Shown here: one piece after another, positions 11,950 through 63,443 of the stretch
Layout of the letters: the number at the start of each line of letters is the position of its first letter
Numbering within the stretch: position 1 is the first letter of the stretch
From: Marvania coccoides
Taxonomy: Eukaryota > Chlorophyta > Trebouxiophyceae > Chlorellales > Chlorellaceae
Assembly (NCBI GenBank): GCA_963854735.1
Contig: OY978099.1
Span: forward strand, 1,054,001-1,118,000
Length of the DNA: 64,000 nt
Direction: 5' to 3'
Translations under genes and position numbers: made by a program
Notes under the pieces: generated by a model
Databases searched by the model: none
What the model saw: the letters and a program-made list of their open reading frames with translations, nothing else
What the model was told of the DNA's origin: nothing

Positions 11950-12433
11950 TCACGGCTCTTGGCCGCCTTCCAGCAGAATTTCTCCATCTGGTTCCGTCGG
12001 CAGCGCCGGCCCCGCTGCCGCAAACCCTTCGTTCAGCAGCGGCGATGCTTCTGCATCCCCGCCTTCCTCCTCATCCAGCGTTCTCATGGGCCACGCCAGC
12101 AAACCTGCCACCCATATCACCAGCCCCACCGCACCCGCCACAATCTCAACCGGCACCGCATCCCGCTCCAGGAACCTGTGCGTTGCCTGGGCAGCCATCA
12201 GCGGTCGGAAGTGCGCCAGCTGATCTGGCGATGCTTGCGAGGACTCGTGCGCCCAGAAGATGGGTAGAAAGGTGTCCTGCACGTGGGGGTCAATTGCGGC
12301 GTACTTTGCTCCGAACCAAGAGCTCAGCATGAGCGTCTTCAGCGCCCGCAGCGTCATTCCCGTGGTCGGTTCTGCATTAATGGAAAATTCAAAGGCAAAA
12401 TAATGATGTTTGCTAAAACATACAGCAAAAAAT

Positions 12434-12507
<74 letters not shown>

Positions 12508-13927
12508 CTACTGAAATAATTGTCGCTCAGTTTACAACTTGAAAATTGCCGAAGGCTTTCGCCTTTTCTCCACTCGCCGATATCTAGGTAAATGTCGTGC
12601 CGCTCCCGGTCGCACTCCACCCCCTCCACTCCTGCCGCCAGCGTCTCATTCGCGTCGCAGTACCCCGGAAGCGACAAAAACAACTGCGGCCCACCGCCGC
12701 CGCCCCGCTGCGCTGTGACGTTCATCAGCCCCGTCACCTCCTGGTAGAACCGCGGGTCGGGGTCGCGCTGGGCGGGGTCTGGACGGAAGCGCAGGGCCGG
12801 AACTCTCCCCACTCTAACGCCCCCCGTTCCCTCCCCCAGCCCTTCTATTAAAGTGAACGCCCTGAAGGCCTCCCCCACCCACGCTTCCACCGCGTCCCCC
12901 TTCTTCAGTCCTGGCCTGAACTGCGTGCCGTCGGTGCCGCGCACCTGCTCCTCGTAGGGCGGGCACCACGCCACGATATCCACGCTGTGCCAGCGCCTGT
13001 ACTGCCATAAATCATGCAGCTTTCCAGCGCCCGTGGCCACCGCGTCGCGGTCCTTCGGCCCGCTGTCGCCAAAGTTGGTCATGTTGCGCACCAGCGCGAA
13101 GGTGGGGTCGATTTTAACGCCCGGGAGCCACCGCGTGGCTTTTTCCAACAAAGAATCTTCGTAGCCGAACAGCAGCTCCCCTGCGGTGCGGGTGGTGAAC
13201 ACCCCTTGCACGTGGGGGTCCCCCCACCCCTCCACCAGCTTCGCCAGGACCTGCAGCCACCTCGAAAAGCGTCCGGCGGAGCGAGCTTGAATCGCCTCTA
13301 TGGCGCCGATTAGAGGGACGTTGAGGGTGGTGATGGGGTCATCGAGGGAGCCTATGGTGAGTTCAGGCAGGGGGAGATACGCGACGAACTCGTTGAAGGA
13401 GACGGTGGCGTTGTCTGGCGAAAAAGAAACGTACAGCTTGCGCCTGACTTTAGCGAAGGTATAGGGACCCACTTCCTCCTATAAATGGGGCAATAATAAG
13501 GCTGTATGTAAGGTATTAAGTTGTCAGCGTCAAAATCTGGTAGAAGAAGTAAAAAACAAGAGAATGGGGGGCTCACCAGGATGGGTTTACCACCGCTGCG
13601 AACTTCGCCCACGTTCGTGATGTTCCAGAGGTAGAAGCGGGAGTACGCTACCGGAACGCTTTCGGAACCGATGTAACGCTCTGAAAGGCACCGAAAGGAA
13701 GGGGTGAGAGGGGTGGGAAGTTCCGGAGAGGGCTTGAACAGCAACGAACAATCTTGGGATCACACACCTTGAACGGCGCGAGGGGAATCAGGGCGCCATA
13801 TCAAATTTCCGCGGATGCCACGCGCTATTTTTGCTTCAAGACGGGGCCGCAACACCTCCCGGGCTATCTCCAGGCCACATGAAAGAATGAGGAGGGCTAA
13901 ACCGAAACAAAACAGACCTGACCGCAT
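11950..13927 (-). CDS. CD36/SCARB/LIMP-2 family two-pass membrane protein
   Basis: Four exons: 13927-13768, 13680-13577, 13478-12578 and 12371-11950 (528 aa, usual for the family). CD36 proteins have two membrane anchors and a large lumenal lipid-binding domain. Here helix 1 is at residues 7-19 (CFGLALLILSCGL), the ectodomain carries GGKPILEEVGPYTF, LLFGYEDSLLEKA, GTDGTQFRPG and LDIEPTTGM, and helix 2 (VEIVAGAVGLVIWVAGLLA) lies near the C-terminus. The short tail holds DAEASPLL, matching the [DE]xxxL[LI] endolysosomal sorting signal, so a LIMP-2-like vacuolar or endosomal location is inferred. Intron 3 (12577-12372) must start with GC (ATCG-GCGAGT) to give the conserved LDIEPTTG. It holds a (CAA)25 tract. 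Head-to-head with NEF1, starts 272 bp apart. Confidence 0.92.
12434..12508. repeat. (AAC)25 microsatellite in an intron
   Basis: Seventy-five bases of uninterrupted AAC units in the last intron of the CD36-family gene (GTT on the coding strand), between about 70 and 145 bases from the GC donor. Without splicing, it would encode a poly-Cys or poly-Leu run. Confidence 0.95.
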
Positions 13928-31582: not shown

Positions 31583-33566
31583 ATGGCTCAGGGGGCAGAG
31601 GAGAAAATAGACACAGGCAAGTCCCTTTATGCCTCCTATTTATAAACAATAAAACATGAACCAGCGCATGTTGCTTTGGCAACCTTTCCATCCCTTTCAA
31701 TCTCTACACATTGTTTTTCAAAGGGAGGGACTCTTAAAAAGCTCTCTGACCGTGCCTCACCGCTGCGCCCTGTTCTCTTTCCTCGTGCAGTATGGAAAGC
31801 TGCGGCCTACGGCGACTTCGACGCGCTGAAGCGGCTGGCAGACGAGCAGCCTGGAGTCCTTCACTCTCCCGATGACCAGGGCTACTTCTGCCTGCAGTGG
31901 GCCGCGCTCAACAATCGCGTTGCCGTCATCAGCTATCTCCTCGACCAGGGGTGCGAGATCAACGCCGCGGACTCCACAGGGCAGACGGCAGTGCACTGGG
32001 CAGCGGTGCGCGGCAGCATCCCCGCGCTTGAAACTTTGCTGCGTGCTGGGGCGGACCAGGGGGCGGCAGACTCGCGCGGGTACACGGCGTGCCACGTGGC
32101 GGCGCAGTATGGCCAAACTGCGGTGCTATACCACCTCGCAATGAAGTGGGGGGGCGACACCGATGGCTGCGATGCTGATGGCCGCACGCCGCTGCACTGG
32201 GCAGCGTACAAGGGGTTTGCGGACACTGCGCGGCTGCTGCTGGTGATGGGCTCCCGCCCCACGCTGGAGGACCGCGAGGGATGCACGCCGCTGCACTGGG
32301 CAGCGATCCGGGGAAATTCCGAAGCTTGCACGGTGCTGCTACAGGGCGGGGCGGTGGACGCGCTGGACGCGGCGGACGCCACCGGCGCCACCCCTTCGCA
32401 GCTGGCCATTGACAAGGGGCACCGCCTGCTGGGCGTGAATCTCGCCGAGTATCGGTATCGAAAAGCAAAGACGGGGGGCGGAAACGGCCCCCTCGCGTTC
32501 TTAGCGAAGCTGCACTTGTCGCCCATCATTTGGGGCATCGTGCTGGGCATGCTAGGCATGCTGGTGTACTGCGTGCTGTACAACAAAGGCTTACCACCGG
32601 CCACTAGAGGCGTCACGCTGGCTGTGTGGGCCACCTTCGCCATGGCGTTTGCTGGGCTGGCGTTCCTGTTCAAGACGACCGTGGCGGACCCGGGGCTGCT
32701 GCCGCGGCATACGGCGGCCGCGGTGGCGGCCACGGCGAGGCGCAACGGCAGCTTTGGCTGCGGCGCTTCGTCGGGCAAGCCGATTGGGTTTAGAGGTGAT
32801 GATGACGTGGAAACGGGCGGGGCGGGTAACGCGACATCGCTTAATTCCCCTGCGCTGTGGGCGGGGCAGTGGGGGCAGCTGTGCGTGTCGTGCAAGATCG
32901 TGAGGCCGCTGCGGGCCAAGCACTGCTCGGTAACCGACCGTTGCGTGGAGTGCTTTGACCATTACTGCCCCTGGGTGGGCAACGCTATTGGCAAGGGCAA
33001 CCGCCACCTGTTCCTCGTGTTTCTGTGGCTGGAACTGGGCGCAATTGTGATGAGCGCAGCCACCGCACTCATTCGCATCCACACAGGTGTGCAGCAAAGA
33101 AAATGCTTTGCACAATTAGTGTTTTTTATTTTATTTTAAATGTCTAAACTTTATTTTGCATCTTTTTGGCACCATTTTGAGTCAATTTTCACCCCTTTCG
33201 GAATTTCTATTCTTATCTGCAGCTGTCAGCGCCACGCGGCCCTCCGCAGCGGACGCAGCCTCCGGCTTCAACCTGGCGCTCCCCGTCATGTTTGTCGTCT
33301 TCGACTTCTTCCTGATGATCAGCGTCGCCGCGCTGGCCATCGCCCAGGCCTCCCAGGTCGCCCGCAACGTCACAACCAACGAGCTCGCCAACTGGCACCG
33401 CTACCGCTACCTCCACGCCCCCAGCGGCGACTTCCACAACCCCTTTGACCGAGGCTTCAAGACCAACTGCACGGAAGTTTGCTTCCCTGAGGCGGCAAAG
33501 CCAACTCCCTATGTGCTGCAAGGCAACCAAGAGCAAGAGCTGCTGTTAAAGGGACACCAGACATAG
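31583..33566 (+). CDS. ankyrin-repeat DHHC-type protein S-acyltransferase (TIP1/AKR1/HIP14-like)
   Basis: Three exons: 31583-31616, 31791-33086 and 33223-33566 (557 aa). Six ankyrin repeats (residues about 12-210, such as GQTAVHWAAVRGSIPALETL and GRTPLHWAAYKGFADTARLL) precede membrane helices. The zinc-binding Cys-rich domain follows: CVSCKIVRPLRAKHCSVTDR, then CVECFDHYCPWVGNAIGKGN. Two more helices and the conserved TTNELANWHRYRYL (TTxE motif) complete the family layout. The enzyme transfers palmitate to Cys of proteins at Golgi or plasma membranes. The catalytic DHHC is DHYC, as in yeast Akr1. Intron 1 (31617-31790) starts GC (ACAG-GCAAGT) and joins KIDT to VWKAAAYGD. Confidence 0.92.
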
Positions 33567-34123: not shown

Positions 34124-36114
34124 TTACGTAAGGCAAATGAATGCCAAGCTGGAGGCCGCGAGCGCCGCCAGCCATACTCTCCTGAAACCGCCGCTCGGCG
34201 CTGGAGGGGCGCTCGTTTGTTCCGCTTCTGCCGTTGGCGTGCAATCCAGTGACCCGCCGCTGCCAGTGCAAAGCGGAGGGCTTGGAGGACTGACTGGAGG
34301 GCTGCTGGGAGGGCTGTTCTCTGTGCACTCGGCGGGGCCAAAGATTGTGACGTCACACACAGTGAAAACCCTGCTTACACCCACGCACCTGTCTTTAAGA
34401 TCATCTGTGCCTGCTCGCGAAAAATCGTCGATACATTCTGCGGAGAAGAGAAGAGAAGTAAAGCACTTATTATAACAAGCTGCACTCCGAGTGTTGGCAT
34501 GAAAAAGAGAAGATGTAAAAAGCAAACAAAAAACCATGCCTGGAGCTCCAGCGAAGAAGGCTTGGCACAAGGCAGGGCAGTCGTTGATGACCGTTCTGTT
34601 GAACACCAGGTCTTCCAGCGTTTCGGAGCACGAGTCGAATTGAGGCTTGTTGTCAATGCTGTACTGGCTGCAATTTCCGACCGAGGAAGGAAATGGGGGC
34701 GGGGAAGAAAGAGGCGAAGGAGGCGCGGGCATCAGCGCGGTCCCACCGATGGGACCAATATCCAGGCCGCAGAAGGACAGGGTCTCGCCAATCCTCAGGT
34801 TGTTTTCGAGCAAAATTTCCTCAGCGCCCAAGTCGAAAAGATCAAGACATTCTGCAAGGGGACAAAAAATATAAAAATGGGGCCTCCGTATATTGATTAG
34901 AATTTTATCTTTTCCACTGTTCCCCCTTGATTTAATTATTAAAAAAAAAAAACTACCTGGAGCGGCGGTGTTGAGTAAATTTTGGCAGAGAGACGGGCAG
35001 GGCGTGGTCATAGCGCCAGCGTTAGCGCTGAGAAGCTCCAGCGAGTCAGTACACGACTGGAAGGAGATAGGGTTGCTTCCGAAGAACGCTGCGCAGTCGG
35101 TTCCTCCCGGCGGCGGCGATGGCGGCGCAGCGATTGGCGGCAAATTAGCGCCAACTGGGCCAATCGTGAGCCCACAGAATTGCAAGGTTTGACCGATGCG
35201 CTGGTTCTGTTTCAGCAGCGTTTGTTCGAGGGCCTCGTCAAACGCAGCCGAGCACTCTGCATTGTTCACAAGAGGTCAATGATAAACGAAAAAATTGAAA
35301 AAATAAATAAACTTCCGTCATTATTGAATACTCACCTTGCGAGATGGCCAGCACGCCCGCGCATGCTGTCGGACAGGCAGGAGCAAGCTCAGGACCGAAA
35401 ACAGCGTCTGTGCAAGCTTTAGTTGCTGCCGCGTTGTCATCAAAGAAGAGCTCTGTGCAGTTCACTTCGGTCTTCGGGGCTGGTGGCGACGTGGAGATTG
35501 GAGGGGAGGTCAAAGGGCTGGAGGGTGAGGTGTTGTCCGTTTGTAAAAGCGGGTATCCGCAGATTGTTTGAGAAGGGCCGACGGTCAATCGATTCTCTTC
35601 GATGACCAGTTGAACTCCGCCCAAAAAACAATCCCGGGGCACTGCATGCAGCAAAGGATGCAGTCTTTCACGGTTTGTATTGTTATTGTAAGAGAGAAAC
35701 GAGTGAATAAGTGTTTACCTTTCTCCGCCAGGAGCTGCGAGCACAGCGGCGTGCAGTCTCCTGCAGCGGTGTTCCCTTCGAGCACATCCTTCAAGACAGC
35801 AACGCAAGACTGGAAGGGGGCGGTGTTTAAATAGGGGTCGCACACGGTCTGCAGGAGCTTTCGCATGCTCGCGTCGGCAGCAGAGCCTGGAGTGGCCAAG
35901 GCTACCAGGAAGCAAAGCGCAGGGAGTAAGTTTGCCTGTACAGAGGCAGATAGAAAAGGAAAACCCTTCACATTGAATAAAACCAGCAATTGTTACGTGC
36001 ACTTAAAAGCATATTTTGACACTGCCACAGCGGCTCGCTCCGCTCGCCGCCCCCCAAGCCGACAATTCCCCGCGTATGGCGCACCCCTATTTTTTTCTGC
36101 TGCAACCGAAACAT
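34124..36114 (-). CDS. modular Cys-rich secreted or GPI-anchored protein, paralogue of the adjacent receptor ectodomain
   Basis: Exons 35935-35719, 35641-35336, 35256-34957, 34851-34540 and 34437-34124, with a tentative first exon at 36114-36085 (MFRLQQKKIG), giving about 492 aa. The hydrophobic segment NLLPALCFLVALATPGSA would then be a signal peptide. Four modules follow, each Cys, about 15 residues, Cys, about 16 residues, CPxLC, about 10 residues, Cys, about 25 residues, Cys, as in NCSQY...FDSC...NDCPALC...PE-CIDDF...FTVC. PPSPP-rich linkers separate them. The C-terminus is SGGFRRVWLAALAASSLAFI with a short end, typical of a GPI-anchor signal. The module introns lie at the same place (AxPG/EC) and are all phase 1. 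Intron 34539-34438 appears to start with GC. No known domain recognised. The same modules form the receptor kinase next door. Confidence 0.8.
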
Positions 36115-36537
36115 TTTTCAAAAAATGTTCCGAGCTGGTCGCACAGCCGATGCGACTCAGCCCTGCATACAAATCTGCCAGTCTAATTTAATTTGTGAAA
36201 TGCTTTGAAAGGTCAAGCGACGTGACAAAACAACGTTTTTTTGGACGATCCTGTTTTTGGGCGATTTCATTCATTGGGTGCCGGTTTCATTTCATTTTTC
36301 GAGTTTCGGACCAAGTGGTGCTCATTCAGTGATTATGGACTACTTACTAGCAAGCGGTTGAGAATAATTGGGCGATATTGAAAGAGATTGATTCTCTGGT
36401 TTGAATTTCAATACCTCAGAATGGTACGTTGATTAGATTTGTTTGGTGTCGAATTGCACCTTTCAACATATCAATGCCACACACAGCATGCAACCATCAT
36501 AATAAATACATTTTTCACCTGTTTGTCAAATTTATAG
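36115..36537. promoter_or_regulatory. shared 5' region of the Cys-rich gene and receptor kinase
   Basis: Divergent starts (36114 tentative; 36538) leave about 420 bp for both promoters. AT-rich with direct runs such as attcattgggtg and tttcatttcattttt. No well-defined motif; co-regulation is possible but not shown. Confidence 0.35.
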
Positions 36538-39500
36538 ATGATGCATGTGAGAAAACACGCCAGCGCAACCCTGTGGATTAGTGTAGTCGTGGCAATTGCC
36601 ATCTGCACAATCATCTCCCACCCCTATGCATGCCATGGCGCGCAGCAGGATGATCTGGCGAGGGAGCAGATGTCAGCTCTTGGCAATGAATTTTCCGACA
36701 TGGTGGGTCAACGCCGCAGGCTGCAGCAGGACCAAGCCAACTGCACCGAGGTGTTCGAAGACAACCTGGGTGTGGGGGTGCCGTCATGCACCACCACCCT
36801 CGTTCAGCTTGTGCTTTCAGGCTCTAACGAAGCCTCCGTGTGTCCGCCAGACTGCGGTAATTTTCTCTCAGCAACTCCAGGCGAGCGATTTGACCTAAAA
36901 AGAAAACCAAATGCGTGCTATTATTACGCTTCCATTGAGTATTACCTCTCTTCACTGACAACTTTCACTTTCGGGCTTGGGTTCATGCAGCGTGCAGCGA
37001 CTTGTTCGCCCAGCTCTTGGGAATTGCGCTAGCCCAGACCAACATAACGACCGGCGCAGGTCAATCATATGCTTTCTGCGGCTTGACAGTTACTCCGGGC
37101 AATGGAGAGACCGTGCAACCTTCTCCACCACCATCGCCTGCTGGGCCAATAAATTGCTCTGACTATGCGTTGACCAACCAAGTGGGCTTGAATTCATGCG
37201 TCCAGTCCCTCATATCCCAAACCGTGGGAGGCCTTGCGGATTGCCCCGATCTATGCAACCAGTTCTTGGCAGGCGCGCCAGGTCAGCTGAAATTAGTGTC
37301 TAGTACTTTCTTTAGTACTCAATTTAATGTCATTTCTTCTCTCAACAGGCTGCCGCGACGACCTGGCCCTCGCTGGCGACGAGGCTCTGCTGCAAGCGTG
37401 CGTGGGAATCGGAGGCAGTTTCAGCGTCTGCGATATTCAGTTCAGAGGCCCTTCTTCCGACTGTTTGGCAGCCAATGATTCAGCTTCCCCTCCTCCTCTG
37501 CCGCAAAACCAGGAATCGTGGCCGCCGCCGCCGCCGCCTGGCGGCGATTCTTCGGTCTCTGCCGCTGTCATTGCTGCCATTGCCATCGGTAGCATTGCCG
37601 GAGTTGGTAAGCCAAAACAATAAATAAATAATAAAATTAACTATTGGAATGTATTAACTAAATAATTCATATGCCCAATATGCTCCGAGGATAATTAAGC
37701 TCGTCTTGTTTTAGGTAAACAAACTAAATAATGTACTTTCAATTTGCATGCAGCTGTTATCGGCATTGGCTCATTCTTTGCCTTTAAAAAGTGCTCCAAA
37801 CGAGGAGAAGCAACACCTCCACCTGCTGCTGTGGTGGTCAGCAGCGCCACCGCCAGCCAGCCCCCTCTTCTCACCATTGGGCCCATGGCATCGTCTCACC
37901 AGCAAGAGGTTAACATGCCTGGCACGCACTCCACAGGCGCTGCTACCATTAAATCGCCGTTTTCCGCCCCTTCTCACCACTCCCTGGCGCCTACCTTGCC
38001 TGAGGGCTCTCTAGAATTAGCGTCTTCAAAAGGGTCCCTCCAGACCATCTCGCCGGCTGGTAGCGACCCAATTCTCAAGTGGGCCAGCCAGAGCTTGCGC
38101 ACGGCCCCTGTGCGGCGCTCTGGGCCGTCGGGAGTGCCTGAGCACGTGCAGCAGCTCGAATTTACGTGGCCGAACGTCCAAATCATCAAATCGTTAGGCC
38201 TGGGGTCTTTCGGCAAGGTCTACCTGGCAAAGCTGCACCACACTCCTGTGGCTTTAAAAGTGCTGGTCGACGCAAAAGCGGCGGCGGCTACCTCCACCGG
38301 CCTTGACAGCGACATTGGTGAAGTTGCGATGCCATCCCGTGATAAATTGGCGGAGGAGGTGACGTTCATGGCGCCCCTCCGGCATCCCAATGTTGTTAAT
38401 TTAATTGGCTGGTGTATTGACCCGCCATGCGTCGCAATGGTGAGATAAACACCTTTTTTTTAAACTGACAGAAAAGCTCATGACGAGCGTTTTCTCATTC
38501 GTGTATACGCAGGAGTATGCGGCTAGGGGATCGCTGTATGATGTGCTGCAGCAAGGCGCTCGCGACCCTGCCATGGCTGCGGAGCTTAACTGGGAGCGCA
38601 GGGTGCGGATGGCCGCTGACGCAGCAGCAGGAATGTTGCATTTGCACACGAGGAGCCCAATGATCATCCACAGGGACCTTAAAAGCCCTAATCTGCTGGT
38701 TGCGGTAAGTTGATAATTGACGAATGCTTGTACCTTGCAGGGAGAAATAAATATAAACAAAAGATTCACTTCAAAATTGCAGGCCGATTGGACTGTGAAG
38801 GTGAGAGAATGAGGGCAAGGGCACTCGCCCGCGAGTTGCTGGAAGCGATATGTCATATAATAACTTTAGTCTTCTATTTATCCAACAGGTGGCTGACATG
38901 GGAATGTCATCGATAGTTAACGAAGCTACTCGCAACTCGTTAGCAACTGCTGGCGGGGCTTCTAATCCAAGGTGTCTGCGCTAGAGCTGTTTAAATCATT
39001 TTAATGCCATTTACCAATGCTATTATAGCACTCAATGTTGCCATTTTAACACTCCGCAATGCTGAAATGCAGGTGGCTAGCAAACGAAGTGCTCAACGGC
39101 GGCCGCCACACAGCTGCAAGCGACGTTTTCAGCTTCGGCATTTGCCTGTAAGCTTTTCTTCTTCTCATATGTGGATGCCCAATACTGCCTTGAGAAATAC
39201 AAGCTCAACATTGAACGCCTCCCCTTCCTACACGTATCACGCCCCCCTGGTAGTATTCACGGCTACTGTATTAATTATTGTACTAAACGCCAATCACGTG
39301 TCTATGTGCAGATGGGAGCTGTTGGTTTGGAGACTACCGTGGGAGGGAATAAATCCATTTGCAATCATGAGGGCCGTCGTGCAGTTCGAGAGGCTTGCAG
39401 TGCCACCATTAGACAAACTGCCTGGCTTCGAAGGCAGAGAGCTGCCCGTGCAGGCGCTTAACAGCTACATTGCTTTGATGCAGCGGTGCTGGGCGGCAGA

Positions 39501-39558
39501 CCCCGCACGCCGGCCTGATTTTGAAGTTATAGCGGCTGAACTGAGCAATCTGGAGTGA
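36538..39558 (+). CDS. receptor-like protein kinase with Cys-rich ectodomain
   Basis: Nine exons: 36538-36880, 36991-37281, 37349-37606, 37754-38439, 38513-38704, 38783-38800 (18 nt), 38889-38971, 39073-39147 and 39312-39558 (730 aa). All junctions keep the frame. Signal anchor or signal peptide at residues 10-36; two Cys modules (about 68-280: NCTEVFEDN...CPPDCG, then NCSDYA...CPDLCNQFLAGAPG-CRDD) with PPSPP linkers; one membrane helix at about 283-306 ending FFAFKKCSKR; a Ser/Pro juxtamembrane part; TKL-type kinase about 440-725. Kinase motifs: GLGSFGKVYLAK, VALK, IIHRDLKSPNLL and SDVFSFGICLWELL. DFG is replaced by DMG (VADMGMS) and APE by ANE. Intron 1 appears to be GC-AG (CCAG-GCGAGC). 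The likely role is cell-surface sensing; ligand and substrates are unknown. Confidence 0.9.
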
Positions 39559-40192: not shown

Positions 40193-41615
40193 TTAGATGC
40201 CGCCTTTCAGCATCACCGCACTGTTTTTCGTGGTTCTGTTGATCCATTTGGCGTGGTGCATCACCTGTAAAAATAAGTGGACGAATATTTTTGAGTTTGT
40301 GAATATTTAGTTCTTGAGGGTATTTAAAAAAAAAAACTAAAGAAACTGACGCTGGTGGGCACGTCGAGGTTGTTGGTTTTGGAGCCGCACACGCTGTTGC
40401 CGTAGCTGGTCACGCCCACCAGCACCGGGGTGGTGCCCTTCAGAATGAAGTAAGGCCCGCCAGAGTCGCCGCCGCAGGTGTTGGAGTGGGTGACGGTGCT
40501 CAGGCCTGGAAAAAGCCAAAGAAAACAAGGTAAGATATTCGCTTTTAAGACAATAAAATTAAAGATTCGCTATATTTGCTTTCTCTCGTCACAAACGTAA
40601 CGGAAATCGTTTTTCGACGACAATACGATTATATTCTTTGCAACAAGAATGTTTGTTTAAAAACTCACCAAAGCAGAGGTGGTCACCGGGGATTGTGTCT
40701 CCGAAGAGTTTCTTGTGAGGGGCCAAGCACTTGGAGCGCGAGATGTAGGGCATGTCGGTATAGCGCAGCTTGATTGTCAGGGCGCCGTTCTCTTGGCCGC
40801 CCCACCCCATGGTGGTCGCCTTTTGGCCGTGGGAGAGCGCAAAGTTGGGGTGCGCAATCGAAACGGGGGTGGCGAGGGCGGGGCGGTCCAGGCGCAGCAG
40901 CATGATGTCGTTAACACGGTCGCCTGCTCTGTAGCCGGGAGTGATTTTTTGCTGCAAATTCATCAAAATATTTGGAGGGACGGCTCAGAACATCGTGCTA
41001 TTGCTTTATTTGAAAGCTCTGCGCATTTTTCTTTTCTTTATTTCTTCTCACAGTGACGTTGTAGATGTCGCCCTTGGTGCGGTTGAAGCTGCCGATGCGC
41101 ACTTCAAACTTGTTCGCACCCACAGCTTTCCCCCAGACATACTGCAGTTAAGTCATTGCTGAAGGTTAGGATCAGGCCTCTGGTGCCAATGCATGACTGT
41201 TGAAATGAGAAATAAGAATTGCACTCACGCCACAATGCGCAGCGGTGAGGACCCATCTGGGCGCAATCACGGAACCAGTGCACGAGCCCATAACCCCAGC
41301 CTTGCCCTTGATTGTGATCAACGCAGTAAACTTGTACTTGTAGCCCTGCGTCAGTGGTTAAAACAACTGAGATCATTTTGTGGATACGAGCGTCAACGCC
41401 CACACACGCCGCCTGCGGCGGGGATGCGCAACCCAAAAAATGTTCGTCAAATTCAATACCTTGGGGATCTCAGCGCCGTAGGCGATGCGCGGAGTGACCT
41501 GTAATAAACTGCGAGTGTATTGACTGGAGGCTGCGATGGGTTGCGCCACAGCTGGCGCGAGCTGGATACATGCTACAACAGCGAGTACAACTATTATAAT
41601 GGGAGCAAAAGCCAT
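40193..41615 (-). CDS. secreted S1A (chymotrypsin-fold) serine protease
   Basis: Six exons: 41615-41460, 41345-41229, 41141-41052, 40951-40669, 40505-40351 and 40264-40193 (290 aa), all GT-AG. A signal peptide (MAFAPIIIVVLAVVACIQLA) and a short propeptide lead to R-IAYGAEIP, the likely activation site (IVGG in animal enzymes). Catalytic triad: His in VLTAAHCG, Asp in NDIMLLRL, Ser in CGGDSGGPYF. Cys pairs are consistent with the fold (SCTGSV...HC; CFG...C). The residue equivalent to trypsin Asp189 is Asn (NTCGGDS), so cleavage after Lys or Arg is not expected. The end VMHHAKWINRTTK matches the C-terminal helix. Physiological substrate unknown. A short relic resembling the His region lies at 45857-45996. 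Confidence 0.92.
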
Positions 41616-46252: not shown

Positions 46253-49200
46253 ATGAGGCTTTTAACCGTCCTTCTGCCGCTGGCGTTGTGCGTGTTTCAA
46301 GGTACTACTAGCGTCGCAGTTCGTTTTTTGTTTCTTTGCGAGCCTATATCACACACAGTGTCGCAATGACTATGCAGCGCAACTTGGTTACGATGCAGCT
46401 GTGGATGATGCTTGATGAAGCTCATAACAACTTTTCCAAATGTCATTTCATCGATGTGATCCTTGTCCCTTCCTGTCTCTCCCGCAGGTCAAGCTGCACG
46501 TGTCCTAACGCAAACTAGCTGTTTCGACCAGCCACTTCTGCCCGACATTATCACCGAAGCGCATGGGGCCATTTACGGCGGCCCAGCACAGACCGTTGGA
46601 GACGTTGAGTATTCCTTCGCGGTCGAGTATCAGGTAGGTTAAAACCATAAACCGAAACAACCGTAGGCATGCCACGCCATTGGAAACAAATCGCGGTCGA
46701 GGGTAGCTTCTGAGCGAATTTAAAAATATCTGACAGGTGGCAAAAGTTAACAACAAATATTTTGTTTTGCAGAGCATTGTCGAGCTTGTGTATATCTCTG
46801 ACCCTCCTGATGTCAAGGACAGGTAAATACACATTACTTTGTCTCAATAAACTTTTCTTCGCAACCCATTTTATAGTTTATTCACAATATTTGCCTGTCC
46901 CCTATTCCATTTTCAGGTACGTCCTTGGGGCGTACGACGCCGAGGAAACCGCCATCCTGCGCGCAGATCTGCCTGTGACCGCAGCGCCATGGTCTGTTGA
47001 CGTTTACACCAGCGCAGCAGGCCAGGACCCTCTGCACCCCTCGGTCGATAGAACAACAGCACCCCGACCCGAGTTTGACGAGGCAAGCAACGAAAACGAG
47101 ATCCCTGCTGATTTTAACGGCCAACAGCTGGCCAACCCAATGGGAGCAGATTGCCCAAAGGGAAAGTCGCGCAAGGTCATCGTGAATTACGTTTGTGGAG
47201 AGCCGCTCACGAAAGACCCAGATGCGCCGGATGATCCTGCTACCTACATCCTTACCGACGCGCAATTACAGGTTAGTGGCGTTGTCAACTGTTTTATTTT
47301 TTCACTTCCCTAAATTTACGGGAAAGTAATGGCAGCAGGCCGGATTAGGGAATTAAATGTAACATTTTCCATTTCAAAATTGCAGGCTGTGTCCCTTGTG
47401 GATTGTGAATTTCAAATCACGGTCAAAGTTCCCGAGGCTTGCACCCAGTGCTCGCCGCCGCCTCCATCCCCGCCGCCGCCTTCGCCGCCGCCACCTTCTC
47501 CGTCCCCCCCCCCGCCCGAGGACAGGTAAGCTCGGACTGTTTGATAAAAACTAAATAGAAATAAAAAAAATAAAGCAGGGCAATGCCGATAATGTAACTC
47601 TTTTTTGTTATTTGTTTTCAGCCCGCCCCCACCGACTGTGGTTGACAGCCCGCCCCCGCCCACCGTGGAGGAGCCCCTGGCATCTCCTCCGCCTCCCGTG
47701 GAGGAGCCCCTGGCGTCGCCCCCGCCCCCCGTGGAGGAGCCCCTGGCGTCGCCCCCGCCCCCCGTGGAGGAGCCCCTGGCATCTCCGCCTCCGCCAATTT
47801 TGGAAGCGACTGCTGCCAGCCCTCCTCCCCCCGTGGAGGAGCCCCTGGCATCTCCCCCGCCCCCCGTGGAGGAGCCCCTGGCATCTCCCCCGCCCCCCGT
47901 GGAGGAGCCCCTGGCATCGCCGCCTCCGCCAATTTTGGAAGCGACTGCTGCCAGCCCTCCTCCGCCCGTGGAGGAGCCCCTGGCATCGCCCCCACCCCCC
48001 GTGGAGGAGCCCCTGGCATCTCCCCCGCCCCCCGTGGAGGAGCCCCTGGCATCTCCCCCGCCCCCCGTGGAGGAGCCCCTGGCATCTCCGCCTCCGCCAA
48101 TTTTGGAAGCGACTGCTGCCAGCCCTCCTCCGCCCGTGGAGGAGCCCCTGGCATCTCCCCCGCCCCCCGTGGAGGAGCCCCTGGCATCTCCCCCGCCCCC
48201 CGTGGAGGAGCCCCTGGCATCGCCGCCTCCGCCAATTTTGGAAGCGACTGCTGCCAGCCCTCCTCCGCCCGTGGAGGAGCCCCTGGCATCGCCCCCACCC
48301 CCCGTGGAGGAGCCCCTGGCATCTCCCCCGCCCCCCGTGGAGGAGCCCCTGGCATCTCCCCCGCCCCCCGTGGAGGAGCCCCTGGCATCTCCGCCTCCGC
48401 CAATTTTGGAAGCGACTGCTGCCAGCCCTCCTCCGCCCGTGGAGGAGCCCCTGGCATCTCCCCCGCCCCCCGTGGAGGAGCCCCTGGCATCTCCGCCTCC
48501 GCCAATTTTGGAAGCGACTGCTGCCAGCCCTCCTCCGCCCGTGGAGGAGCCCCTGGCATCGCCCCCACCCCCCGTGGAGGAGCCCCTGGCATCTCCCCCG
48601 CCCCCCGTGGAGGAGCCCCTGGCATCTCCCCCGCCCCCCGTGGAGGAGCCCCTGGCATCTCCGCCTCCGCCAATTTTGGAAGCGACTGCTGCCAGCCCTC
48701 CTCCGCCCGTGGAGGAGCCCCTGGCATCGCCCCCACCCCCCGTGGAGGAGCCCCTGGCATCGCCCCCGCCCCCCGTGGAGGAGCCCCTCGCCTCGCCGCC
48801 ACCGCCCAGGTCAGTTTAATTACTTCTCCGCACCGTCCCGGCAATTGAACAAACACAAATAACTGATTTCTCTTTCATTTTTTGTTGCTTGCAGCACTGC
48901 CGTGGTGCAAGGGTCTGACAGCCCTCCTCCACCCAAAACGACGCACGTCTCATCCCCGCCGCCTCCCATCACCTCCACTAAGTGTGTGAAAACAACCGGC
49001 ATCAAGGTGGTCCTCGAAATTGGCACTAAGCGGTGCGCTGTCGCTGTCAACACCGCCCTCTCCAAGTCCGCTGCCAAGTACTCCTACTCGCGCGCCATGA
49101 AGAAGTGCGGGGTGGATGTCACTGTGGGTTGCAAGGGCCGCCGCAGGAACGTCATGCAGGTGTCTGTGCGTCTGAAGTTCATCGCCGACCGGTATAAAGC

Positions 49201-57659: not shown

Positions 57660-60600
57660 ATGCCTTCCAGGAAGATGAAAGGTAAGTGAAATTCCCTGCA
57701 AGGAGCCCTTCAGCTTGCACCTTTTAAATTTCAAATTGCACAGCTGTCGCACGCTCAACGGCCGCCAAATCGTTTGTTGTTTGATGTTTTCAGATGCTGG
57801 AAAGGAGAACGGCACAGACGAAATCGTGATGGCAGGTGAGGGCGCTCGGGGCAGCGGTTTTTATGACGGCCTTGTTGGGGGAATGTGTCGATCTGATCAC
57901 AAACCAACTATTTCTGCAGACTCGCCTTCCATGAAGCCGACCGCTAAGCGCGAGGCCAAGGGCAAGAACACGCAACAGTCCAAGCGCCCGCGCAAGGACG
58001 CAGCCGCTGCCGATGGGCCCAAGGAAGCCAACGGCAAGGTCGGCTCTGGTCGCCAAGCTGCCCAGGTGAGCAGCCCGCGTATTGTTAAACTCTCCATCCC
58101 TCCTTCTCAAATAGAAATAATAATCCGCTCACGCATCCCCCCTGCTATGTTCCATGCTAAAAACCTTGCTGTTATTTTTTTTTTTCGAATTTTAAATTTA
58201 ATTTCACCTCCCCCCCTCCCTTCCCCTCAAAACAGAACCTGGACTTCCAGGAGAAGGGCTTGCGCGGGAGCAAGGACGAGCTGGTGGAGGTCAAGGAGGC
58301 TTCCCTCTGCGCTTCCGAGGCCGCTGCCCTGGCCGAAACCGACGTCGGTGTGGGCGCCACTGCCCCCCGCCGCCTCAGCGACTTCTCCGTGGTGGATTCC
58401 GCCGGCAACGTGGAGCCCGTGGAAGCCGTAGAGTACGTGCAGAAGGAGCTCTTCCTTTCCGGCGTCGTTTACCCCGCTAAAGGCCCTCTTTCAAAGGCGA
58501 CCGGCCGCCGCGTTGAGCGCTTCGGCCCGCTGCGTTCCTTCTCCCTGGACGCCTCCGCCAAGGCGGCGGAGTGCGTGGTGCTGGTCACCGACGCGGGTGC
58601 CTACGTTGCCATGCGCCCCGCGCCCTCGTACAAGAAGGTTTTCGCGAATCTCGCTGGGCAGGCGATTATTGCCCACGAAATCGTTCAGGCGCTGACCCCT
58701 GCTACCGGCGGCGCCCCCGACACCACCCTGGACGAGGTCGTGGCCCGCCTGGCGCGCGCCAAGGTGGTGAAGGGCTTCTCCACCCCGCGGGAGGGGCTGC
58801 TGGTGAACGGCAAATTTGTGCTGGCGCAACTGGAGAAGCTGGACGCAGCCAACCCTGCCGCCGAGAAAGACGGCCGGCTGGTGGACTGCGCCTTCGCCAA
58901 GGCGCTGGGAGAGGCGCTGCAGGAGTTCAAGTACGTGGGCGCGCAGGGGGCGGCGGCTGCCGGCGGTGGCATCGTCATTCATGAGCCGGGCGAGCGGAAA
59001 GCCTCTGCCACTGCCTGCGCGGCGGCTGGCAGCGAGTCCGACGCGCAGATGGAGGCGGACGAAGACTTTGCGCGCCAGCTGCAGGCCAAGATGGACGCTG
59101 AGATGCGCGGCAGGTGCGGTTTCCACCCCCCCCCAAAAAATCTTTCTCAAATAATTCCCGCTTCAAAAAGAAGGTTTTTTTTTACTTTCCATATAATTCA
59201 AACCGTTCCTTCGTGTAGGCGCACCGCGGCCCCCAAGGGCGGCAAGGCTTCCAACGCCTACATCAAGGTCAGCGAGGCTGAGATTGCTGACGACTACCCC
59301 CCGCCCGCCGCCTACAACAAGGAGGAAGAAGAGACCGACGAGCTGCTGCTGTTCGACGAGGAGCTCATGGAGGTGGACCCGGAGTACCTCCCCCGCAGCC
59401 TGCTCACCGATTTCTCTATCTACAACTCCGAGGGGCTGTTCGCTTCTCTGGAGCTGCTGCCGATGTGGAGCGGCGTGGACCCTGACGTGGAGCTCTACGC
59501 CTCTGGCGTGGTGGTGGAAGACGACGGCGACTTCTCGGGCGGCTTGGCGCTGGGCGGCGACGCGGAGGAGGCTGCCGGGGGCTCCGGCAGCGGCTCCGGC
59601 GGCAGCGTCGCTGGCGGGGCATCCTCTGCGGGTGGCGCGGCTGCCGCCGCGCAGCCCGCGGGCATGCGGATGTTCCTGAGTCAGATCCGGGAGTGGGTAG
59701 TGGAGTTTGGTGCGGACATGCTGTTCGTTTCCATCCGTACCGACGTCGCATGGTACCGCCTGTCGGTGCCCTCTGAGAAGTACAAGCCGTGGTTCGGAGT
59801 GGCGGTCAAGTGCTCCCGCATCGCCGCGCGCGTGCTGGGCATGCTAAGCGAGGAGTCTCGTGCCTCCAAGTTGTCGTTCACCGACGTGGTGAAGCGTCTC
59901 GCCAAGGACGAAGACTCTGCCCCAACTTATGTCTCCAAGCGCCCCGACCGTGTGGAGCGCTTCCTCTCCGTGCACGCCCAGATCCTGCTCAACTGCTTCA
60001 ACAGCTACCCCGTCAAGGCGGTGCGCAACAGCGCGTTTGCGGCAGCGCTGAAGGACAAGCTGGCGGCGGTACGCCACTCCAAGCTGTACCGCACTGGGAT
60101 CAAGGCCAAGTCCCTGCGGGGCATCAACCGCAACCCCATGCGCGACCGCGCCGCGGGGGCGCGCTCCAAGCCCATGACGGCCACCGCCACTGTGATGGTG
60201 AAGTCCGTGTGGCAGGCCTACTTTGCCGTCGCCGAGAAGGCGGCTGCAGGAGAGGAGGGCGAAGAGGCCGCCGCCGCTGCTGCCGCCGCCGCTGCGGGCG
60301 GTGAGTCAAATATCTAAATGGCATGATGGTGTTTTTTCCCAAGCTATACTTGTTTTTATCATTATTGAAAAGCCTTGCAGCGACGATTTTTTTGATGGAG
60401 TTCTTTTTATGTTCGTTTACTTTTTGTTCGTAGGTGTGGCCAAGGAGGTGGAAGAGGACCTCAACGAGGAGGAGAACGACGAAGAGGAGGCAGAAACCGC
60501 GTTGGCTGAGAAGCCCGCCCTCGTGACCAGCCCCAAGGCGGCCTCCAAAAGCAAAAAGGCGGCCGCCGCTGCCGCCGCCGCCAGCAAGCCCAAGGCCGCC

Positions 60601-63443
60601 TGGGTGGGCTCCCCCGCCGCCAACGAGGGCGCGCGCAAGTTCTACTCCGCCTTCACCCTGGATGGGGTTAAGGTCGCGCTGGGAGACGCCGTGGTGTTGT
60701 CCCCGGTGGATGCTGCAAAGAAAGGCAGCAAGAAAGCAAGCTCCGAGGAGGAGGAGGAGGAGGAGGAGGAAGACGCTGAGGAGGCGCCCCTGGGGCTGGT
60801 GCAGGCCCTGTGGCAGGAGGGATCTGGCGCCAAGCGCGTGCAGGTGCGGCTGCTGGCGAGGGGAGCTGACACAGTGTTGGGCGATGCCGCTTCCGACTGC
60901 GAGTTGTTCCTGACCACGGACGCTGCCACCTGGCCGCTGGACGGGGTCGCGGGGAAGCTGAAGGCTAGCCGGCTGCAGCGCATCTGGGACGCCTCCCTCC
61001 GCGCGGCGCACTTTGCTGAGGACGAGGCGCTGCGGCAGCGCAACGAGACGGCGGTGGCTGAGGGCGGGGACGTGGAGTTCTTCTGGCGGCGGGAGTACGT
61101 GCCGCAAGAGGGCATGTTCCGCGACCCCCCTCGCGACCTGCGGCTGGGCGCCCGCGTGGTGGAGACCGCCGACGCCGACGCCAGCGACTGCGAGGACAGC
61201 GACAGCGAAATGGAAGTGGAAGAAAGCGCAAATGAAAGCAAGAATGCGGTGAAGGGGGTGCGCGCGCTAGCGGACGGCGCTGGGTTCGTCAAGGACGGGG
61301 TGACGTACCGCGTGGGCGACTTTATGTTTGTGGGCCCCGAGGTCTTCGATCAGATGCCGGAAGCCAAGCGGGACGTGCAGCTGCCGGAGTACCTGGCCAA
61401 CTCGCGATACCACAAAGGCAGCCACGTGGGGCTGCGCGCGTGGGGAGTGGGCCGGCTGGTGAAGCTGGGCGCCGCGGGGTCGAAGAAAGGAGGAAAAGGC
61501 TCGGCGTCGGAGGCCACCCGCAACCGCCTCACAACCGTCACCCTGCAGCGGTTCTGGCGCCCCGAGGACATCTCCGCGGACGCCTCCTACAAGGCGGGCT
61601 CCTATTCCGACGTGTACGCAAGCGCGGAGGAGGTGAGCGTGGCTGTGGCTGACGTTGTGGCCCCGCTGACTGTGCGCAGCGCCGGCTGCTCGACCTCCAT
61701 CGATGCCTTCACCTGCGTGGGCTCCTTCGACCGGAAGTCCAAGGCGTTTGGCCCCCCGCCCAAGGACCTCCCTGCTGCCCCCGTGCAGGCCGGCAAGAGC
61801 AGCGCCGTCCTCGGCCATGCGGTCGGCGGCGACGACGGCATCGCCCTGGCCACCATGGACATCTTCGCGGGGTGCGGCGGGCTCAGCGAGGGCATGCACC
61901 AGGCGGGAGCTGCCGTGGCAAAGTGGGCCATCGAGTACGAGGTCCCTGCGGCCGAGTCTTTCAAACTGAACAACCCGGACGCTGCAGTGTTTGCCAACAA
62001 CTGCAACGTGCTGCTGCACGCGTCCATGGCCAAGGCGGGGCTCGAGAGCGACTGCTTGGCGTGTCCCGACGCGGTGGAAGCTTCCGCAGCGCTCCCCCAG
62101 GCAGACCGGGAGGCGCTGCCGCTGCCCGGGGAGGTGGAGTTCATCTGCGGGGGGCCCCCGTGCCAGGGCTACTCCGGCATGAACCGGTTCAACAAGGGCA
62201 ACTGGTCGATGGTGCAGAACTCGATGGTGATGGCGTTCCTGAGCTACGCCGACTTTTACCGCCCCCGCTACTTCCTGCTGGAGAACGTGAGGAATTTCGT
62301 GAGCCACAACAAGAGCTTCACCTTCCGCCTCACCGTGCGCAGCCTGCTGGATATGGGCTACCAGGTGCGCTTCGGTGTGCTCAACGCGGGCAACTTCGGG
62401 GTGGCCCAGTCGCGCAAGAGGACCTTCATCTGGGCCGCTGCCCCCGGGGAGCTGCTGCCCGACTGGCCGCGCCTCATGCACGCCTTCAGGACCCCCCAGC
62501 TAGCCATCAACCTGCCGGGCGGGGTGCAGTACACCGCGGTGCCCCAGACGGTGTGTTTCAAAATCAAACAAATAGGGATACAAAGTTTTTTTCATATGCC
62601 CAATATACTCCGATAGTTAAATGGGCATTTTGTTGACACTCCCACGCTCGTTGGACCCCCCCCCCCCCCCCTCCCCATCGCCATTTACGAATTTTGTTGC
62701 TTGAATTTCAATTTCGTACAGCTCTGTATCTATTCTATACATTCATACTGATGTGTCTTTCCAATAATAATAATGAAATGCAGGTCGGCGCCCCGTTGCG
62801 TCCGGTGACCGTCCGTGACGCCATCGGCGACCTGCCGGCCATTGCCAACGGCCACGACGTCGACGAGATGCCCTACTCGGATGCCCCCGCGTCTGCCTTC
62901 CAGCGCGCCGTCCGCGGCGACTGCGACCTACTCACGGACCACATCTCCAAGCAGATGAACGAACTTAACCTCGAGCGCTGCCGCTGCATCCCGAAGAACC
63001 GCCCTGGCGCGGACTGGCGGGTGCTGGAGGAGATCGTGCGGGGAGACCCCTCGCGGGAGCTGTTCAAGGGGCAGCCGCTTGTGCCGTGGTGCCTCCCCAA
63101 CACCGCCGATCGACACAACGGCTGGCGGGGTCTTTTCGGCCGCCTGGACTGGGCGGGACACTTCCCCACGTCTACCACCGACCCGCAGCCCATGGGTAAA
63201 GTGGGGCAGGTGTTCCACCCCGAGCAGGACCGCATTGTGAGCGTGCGGGAGTGCGCTCGGGCGCAGGGTTTCCCCGACCGCCACCGCTTCTACGGCACGG
63301 TGCACAACAAGCACAGGCAGGTGGGCAACGCGGTGCCGCCGCCGCTGGCGGCCGCGCTGGGGCGCCAGCTGCGCAAGGCGCTGGAGCAGCACGCGGCGAT
63401 GGAGGCGGAGGAGGCCAGGGCTGCACTTGCAGCGCAGATGTAG
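57660..63443 (+). CDS. MET1: DNMT1/MET1-type DNA (cytosine-5) methyltransferase
   Basis: Seven exons: 57660-57681, 57793-57834, 57920-58065, 58236-59113, 59219-60300, 60434-62550 and 62784-63443 (1648 aa; plant MET1 about 1530). N-terminal Lys/Arg-rich stretch (about residues 25-55), two replication-foci domains (about 95-310 and 400-640; [20 protein letters not shown]), an acidic linker, two BAH domains (about 770-930 and 1010-1130) and the methyltransferase domain. Catalytic motifs: [29 protein letters not shown] (nucleophile Cys near residue 1300), [34 protein letters not shown] and [12 protein letters not shown]. The enzyme maintains CG methylation after replication. No CXXC zinc finger, as in plants. 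The last intron holds a 16-C run. Confidence 0.96.
62656..62671. repeat. C16 homopolymer
   Basis: Sixteen C bases in the last intron of the MET1 gene, about 110 bases before its acceptor. A likely sequencing or polymorphism hotspot. Confidence 0.85.

Follow-up and report, generated by a model that had tools for sequence, protein, structure and literature searches.

In land plants, the receptor kinase and the kinase-less protein of the LYK/LYM and CERK1/CEBiP systems have one type of ectodomain in common, and the same division is found in a head-to-head gene pair at positions 34124 to 39558 of a 64,000-nucleotide stretch of the green alga Marvania coccoides (contig OY978099.1, positions 1,054,001 to 1,118,000; this whole stretch is called the window below). 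The two differ in that the land-plant ectodomain is LysM, whereas here a different, cysteine-rich module is joined to a Raf/CTR1-like kinase, in head-to-head genes and in a green alga. Rice CEBiP and OsCERK1, both of which carry LysM domains, co-precipitate following chitin treatment (PMC2996852). LYM proteins are glycosylphosphatidylinositol (GPI)-anchored and LYK proteins have an active kinase, and the proposal there is that the ectodomain was fused in independent events to a kinase, active or dead, or to a GPI site (PMC6207691). Tyrosine kinase-like (TKL) kinases were made into transmembrane (TM) receptors independently in the oomycetes, some with leucine-rich repeat (LRR) ectodomains (PMC3019232), in a lineage and with ectodomains different from those of the window receptor. 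The kinase domain of the algal receptor resembles those of the CTR1/Raf-like TKL kinases. To our knowledge, CTR1 is not a single-pass receptor with an ectodomain of its own. In Brassica, SRK, which combines an S-domain with a kinase of the receptor-like kinase (RLK)/Pelle type, lies near a kinase-less paralogue with a closely similar ectodomain, the secreted SLG; the algal pair resembles SRK/SLG in consisting of a receptor and a kinase-less paralogue, with no evidence of a mating role here. A search of the open-access literature, mostly without subscription papers, found no description of the module or of Raf-like chlorophyte receptors.

The central observation is that both genes of the window pair encode a module of ~75 amino acids, present in two copies in the receptor kinase and in four in its partner. 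In searches of the alga's own genome (22.46 Mb, 15 contigs), the kinase ectodomain as the query matched partner exons at expectation values (E) of 3.4e-10, 6.8e-7 and 2.2e-5, and the reverse search with the partner matched the kinase ectodomain at E 2.6e-10; the module is common to both genes beyond chance, at pairwise identities of 19-42%. The RbcS sequences of this genome are those of a green alga: six matches lie on three contigs, and the one compared scores 171-176 bits with its six closest PDB sequences, which include the chlorophyte chains 1gk8, 7jfo and 8q04, and 145 bits or less with the others, a hybrid and mostly land-plant chains. An earlier note, made from the DNA letters, had proposed a head-to-head pair sharing a cysteine-rich module, with two modules, a TM helix and a TKL kinase on one side and four modules on the other, and both parts of this description are confirmed, by these matches, the gene models, hydropathy and the Pfam family PF07714. 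The features are as follows.

36538..39558, plus strand: receptor kinase gene, 9 exons, 722 amino acids, open spliced frame
36538-36856, 36991-37281, 37349-37606, 37754-38439, plus strand: receptor kinase exons 1-4
38513-38704, 38783-38800, 38889-38971, 39073-39147, 39312-39558, plus strand: receptor kinase exons 5-9
36739..37100, plus strand: module K1 (6-Cys), split by a phase-1 intron, 36857-36990
37152..37464, plus strand: module K2 (8-Cys, membrane-proximal type), split by a phase-1 intron, 37282-37348
37555..37800, plus strand: predicted transmembrane helix, residues ~271-301, hydropathy up to 2.55; intron 37607-37753 interrupts the helix
38179..39543, plus strand: Raf/CTR1-like TKL kinase domain, residues 432-718 (PF07714, E 2.3e-49)
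36115..36537, no strand: candidate shared promoter, 423 bp between the two proposed ATGs (from the gene models)
34124..36114, minus strand: kinase-less partner gene, 6 exons, 492 amino acids, no stop in the spliced frame
36085-36114 (uncertain), 35719-35935, 35336-35641, 34957-35256, 34540-34851, 34124-34437, minus strand: partner exons
35530..35845, minus strand: module G1 (6-Cys)
35140..35462, minus strand: module G2 (6-Cys)
34739..35098, minus strand: module G3 (6-Cys)
34307..34675, minus strand: module G4 (8-Cys, K2-like), intron 34438-34539 GC-AG
34124..34306, minus strand: partner C-terminus with a Pro-rich linker, CTGSGGSLDC (34241-34270) and a hydrophobic, GPI-like tail

The cysteines of the module follow the spacing C1-x11..17-C2-x12..17-C3-x3-C4-x9..11-C5, with a C4-C5 gap of x1 in K1, and every module is interrupted by a phase-1 intron between C4 and C5. 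The CPxLC core of the earlier note holds as C-x3-C in all six window modules and in its strict form in three of them; the receptor modules are present as claimed, with K1 beginning at ~36739 rather than at 36991. When a copy from a receptor kinase on contig C7 is included, all seven modules compared contain a seventh cysteine, and the sixth and eighth are both present in K2, G4 and the contig C7 copy and both absent from K1, G1, G2 and G3. Because the sixth and eighth come and go jointly, the pattern suggests that they form a disulfide pair; shared descent of K2, G4 and the contig C7 copy, which cluster with support of 68-85, would explain it as well. Neither Pfam nor the PDB offers a family for the module, in keeping with the earlier note's failure to recognise it: no Pfam family, LysM included, scored above the cut-off in either ectodomain (SLR1-BP, at E 0.081, lies below it), and a profile of the six window modules matched nothing in the PDB at E <= 10. 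Among public proteins, none of 7991 scored candidates matched the partner at E <= 1e-3, and none of 1811 matched residues 60-262 of the kinase ectodomain at E <= 1; distant relatives may escape these searches, which required shared 5-residue words. The Pherophorin family gave 0 matches, in a search in which the controls likewise gave no signal, and AlphaFold2, run on the contiguous G4 letters including a stop-free intron, returned no usable model (pLDDT 38.8).

The receptor kinase runs from a signal peptide through the two modules and Pro-rich linkers to a TM helix, a Ser/Pro-rich juxtamembrane part and the kinase, with the signal peptide and the single helix predicted by hydropathy; this is the layout of plant RLK/Pelle receptors (signal peptide, ectodomain, one TM helix, cytosolic kinase). 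The partner consists of an intron-split signal peptide, four modules, a Pro-rich linker and a hydrophobic C-terminus without a cytoplasmic part. All eight introns of the receptor kinase are GT-AG, as are three of the four module introns of the partner, the last (34438-34539) being GC-AG. In both genes, exon GC is 0.58 vs 0.38-0.40 in introns, and the proposed frame scores best of all frames under a small codon model, in the partner at 0.127 with the nearest reverse frame close at 0.104. A coding role for the stop-free introns 34438-34539 and 34852-34956 was ruled out, because they lie at the conserved phase-1 site, where reading through the remaining module introns, in either gene, would change the frame. 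Intact reading frames, on which the earlier note had staked its proposal, are thus present in both genes when spliced, with exon 1 of the partner uncertain.

The arrangement recurs at a second locus, contig C6:1265.7-1274.8k (L080, L081), where a receptor kinase on the minus strand (three modules, Pro-rich linker, TM helix, kinase) lies head to head with a kinase-less partner on the plus strand (four modules, CTGANGILDC, hydrophobic end). Three module queries missed this pair and a fourth found it; the query of modules G1-G3 matched contig C6:1268873-1273289, each exon weakly (E 0.009-2.7). With a cut of the contig C6 partner as the query, window stretches matched in the own-genome search at 4.9e-12 to 0.017, four of them at <= 9.9e-6. 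The window-module profile in turn matched exons of the contig C6 pair, with E-values of 7e-10 to 3.7e-7 that apply to this 11.5-kb stretch only. The partners of both loci share the C-terminal motif CTGxxGxLDC followed by a hydrophobic end, and this motif was absent elsewhere in 252,911 scanned bases (six frames, overlaps double-counted, a small part of the genome). At contig C6 the two genes lie on inverted-repeat arms (1268293-1270931 and 1271231-1273866) with 99.4% identity over 2643 bp, and receptor and partner are identical at 299 of their first 300 amino acids, the count starting with the second half of the signal peptide. In these models, the TM exon of the receptor was joined by eye to the kinase exons across a microsatellite intron, and a first exon was found for neither gene. 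A glycolate-oxidase-like fragment was seen by eye near the centre of the palindrome (1268293-1273866). In the window pair, an ungapped search found no inverted repeat longer than 24 nt; that pair is therefore old or independent.

The best PDB match of the window kinase is CTR1 (3ppz) at 165 bits (E 2.1e-47), followed by a row labelled EGFR at 141 bits and TAK1 at 119-120 bits; none of the 60 top-scoring entries out of 2318 PDB sequences bears the name of a plant RLK, and one of them, 5xd6 (98.8 bits), labelled just `Protein kinase superfamily protein', could be of plant origin. In a set of 120 listed proteins plus CTR1, the named plant proteins, PERK-type included, reached at most 86 bits vs 165 for CTR1. 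The G-loop, the beta3 Lys, HRDLKSPN and the Asp of DMG are retained, with ANE in place of APE. We read this kinase as a Raf-like TKL kinase, closest to CTR1 and outside plant RLK/Pelle and the Pelle/IRAK clade, membership being judged by score without a kinome tree. Of 132 protein matches, the top two are unnamed kinases, P0001 and P0002 (from the sources ena and lgn), whose N-terminal part looks LRR-like or purely Pro-rich by eye. In a tree of kinases assembled from six-frame matches, which may include some intron residues, a split with support of 96-97 separates the alga's own receptors, together with P0001 and P0002, from CTR1 and three further references; the references were CTR1 and five proteins, three of eight protein references (two named PERK, one from Bauhinia) having been dropped for motif mismatch. 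A single origin of the two receptor clades has support of just 42-43. The kinases of the window and contig C6 pairs fall in different clades and their sisterhood is rejected (approximately unbiased test, p-AU 2.6e-5); therefore, module and kinase have recombined.

How far does this extend across the genome? The window kinase domain gave 139 exon-level matches at E <= 1e-4, and upstream DNA was read at 24 kinase loci, the window and contig C6 included, giving gene models that are unproven. At 21 of the 24 the product is receptor-like; the other three are ankyrin kinases in which no TM helix was seen. RCC1-type CWG repeats form the ectodomain of seven of the 21 (L028, L032-L035, L048, L049; five by Pfam, two by eye), and single receptors carry GH9 (L029, C7:393000-401500, 1.1e-30), a polysaccharide deacetylase (L036, C6:769500-773600, 1.3e-6), LysM (L047, C11:528700-532750, 9.6e-16), fasciclin (FAS1; L046, C2:47200-51200, 1.8e-6), LRRs, and an RNase T2-like domain (6.9e-5, below the Pfam cut-off); two have a Pro-rich part only, and one, on contig C11, has a further unrecognised ectodomain. 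A second unrecognised Cys-rich domain, without a Pfam match, occurs in three receptor kinases (L037, L040, L051), with a possible relic at C6:1270446 (plus strand) and 1271718 (minus strand). In L037, the contig C7 receptor, it is followed by the module of the window and contig C6 pairs, the best non-window open reading frame in the set with the six-window-module profile (E 0.011), whose homology is supported by intron place and phase, Cys spacing and a kinase identity of 61.5%. By regular expression, a TM helix follows a Pro-rich stretch at 13 of 19 receptor loci, a 14th match being weak (0.92); at the remaining loci the helix is intron-split or was read by eye. Between TM helix and kinase, a DPxLxW-like motif occurs in the window receptor, at 13 of the 19 loci and in P0001, and is absent from P0002, from all three ankyrin kinases and from all 118 other listed kinases. 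A receptor-like protein with LRRs, a Pro-rich part, a TM helix and a cytosolic tail in which no kinase was seen (exons joined by eye) was noticed at L027 (C8:416000-425000).

What, then, might the partner do? We give about an even chance to its being a kinase-less, ligand-binding co-receptor beside a signalling receptor. With its many copies of a presumably disulfide-rich binding module, the partner would bind a ligand or a wall polymer at the cell surface, or concentrate it there, and then, in a complex, pass it on to the receptor with two modules, from which the Raf-like kinase would signal inward; co-expression from a common promoter region would coordinate the two. The hydrophobic end was called GPI-like by the earlier note, and the partner is probably GPI-anchored, as LYM is; the end is there, and its role as an anchor signal is read from the sequence. 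The contig C6 pair and the common C-terminal motif support the note's picture of a receptor with a tethered paralogue; its three roles for the latter, co-receptor, decoy and ligand-binding partner, are inseparable by sequence.

Several points weigh against a co-receptor. A common module alone does not show that the two proteins meet. In the 2.5 kb read upstream of L037 there is no module gene; therefore, a partner is not obligatory. The tail of the window partner is only mildly hydrophobic (top 19-residue window 1.55), and exon 1 of this gene is undecided among five in-frame ATG/donor options, counted with GTA or GTG donors only. It was set at 36085-36114 because this gives a short intron (149 nt) and a basic start; its donor, GTGCGC, is weak, and alternative options also yield a signal-peptide-like start.

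The best surviving alternative, which we consider possible though rather doubtful, is a role in the wall or in adhesion, with module and linkers binding a wall glycoprotein or polysaccharide, the partner a coat protein and the kinase a sensor of wall integrity. The Pro-rich linkers between modules are compatible with this, as are sister receptors with LysM, FAS1, GH9 and deacetylase ectodomains, which we take to be wall- or glycan-related families; against it, neither Pfam nor the PDB recognises a sugar-binding family in the module. Somewhat less likely still is a decoy or damper that keeps ligand from the receptor or forms unproductive complexes: the partner lacks a kinase and carries more copies of the module than the receptor does, and the near-identical contig C6 ectodomain would compete for the same ligand, but sequence cannot separate a decoy from a co-receptor and a shared promoter region, if used, would couple decoy and receptor levels. 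We regard as similarly unlikely that the module was merely shuffled and became common by duplication, without joint function; it is joined to kinases of two clades and adjoins another domain at contig C7, and one kinase clade carries many ectodomain types, but the head-to-head layout and the partner tail recur together at two loci. A self-recognition or mating system of the SRK/SLG kind, homogenised by gene conversion, is improbable: the inverted contig C6 arms would permit conversion but are equally explained by recent duplication, and in the diverged window pair (module identities 19-42%) an ungapped search gave no such repeat over 24 nt.

Beyond the co-receptor itself, we tentatively suggest, at somewhat less than even confidence, that the alga, separately from the land-plant RLKs, evolved an extensive set of Raf-like receptors with freely exchanged ectodomains, to which divergent kinase-less partners acted as donors. 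At contig C6, a receptor of another type would have stood next to the partner and, it appears, lost its own ectodomain to an inverted duplication of that partner; the 5' exon of this receptor may persist as a relic in the repeat.

The pair is flanked by an ankyrin-DHHC palmitoyltransferase (31646-33566, plus strand) and a trypsin-like protease (40592-41500, minus strand), both with outer limits set by eye. Elsewhere in the window are a CD36-family protein (12357-13478, minus strand, 1.1e-40), a minisatellite of 135-303 bp units in overlapping open frames (47653-48807) and a DNMT1-type cytosine methyltransferase with RFD, BAH and methylase domains (58161-63440, plus strand).

As to the wider context, a review table names 1-4 RLKs per chlorophyte, and the same review cites a study that found any in 9 of 18 chlorophytes, as well as LysM RLKs in Chara (PMC10868138); this fits the earlier note's view that such receptors are scarce in chlorophytes, but an LRR-RLK expansion is reported in green algae (PMC10834447), and the genome studied here has numerous receptor-type kinases of the Raf-like kind, one of them with a LysM ectodomain. 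That one, L047, runs against the statement that LysM-RLKs are exclusive to embryophytes (PMC10834447). The main text of PMC11126685 contains the word `receptor' 0 times. The pair forms an experimental unit of two genes, one promoter region and one module. If our interpretation is true, the contig C6 palindrome would be a visible case of ectodomain swapping, and pairs of receptor and co-receptor with a common ectodomain would have arisen more than once in green plants.
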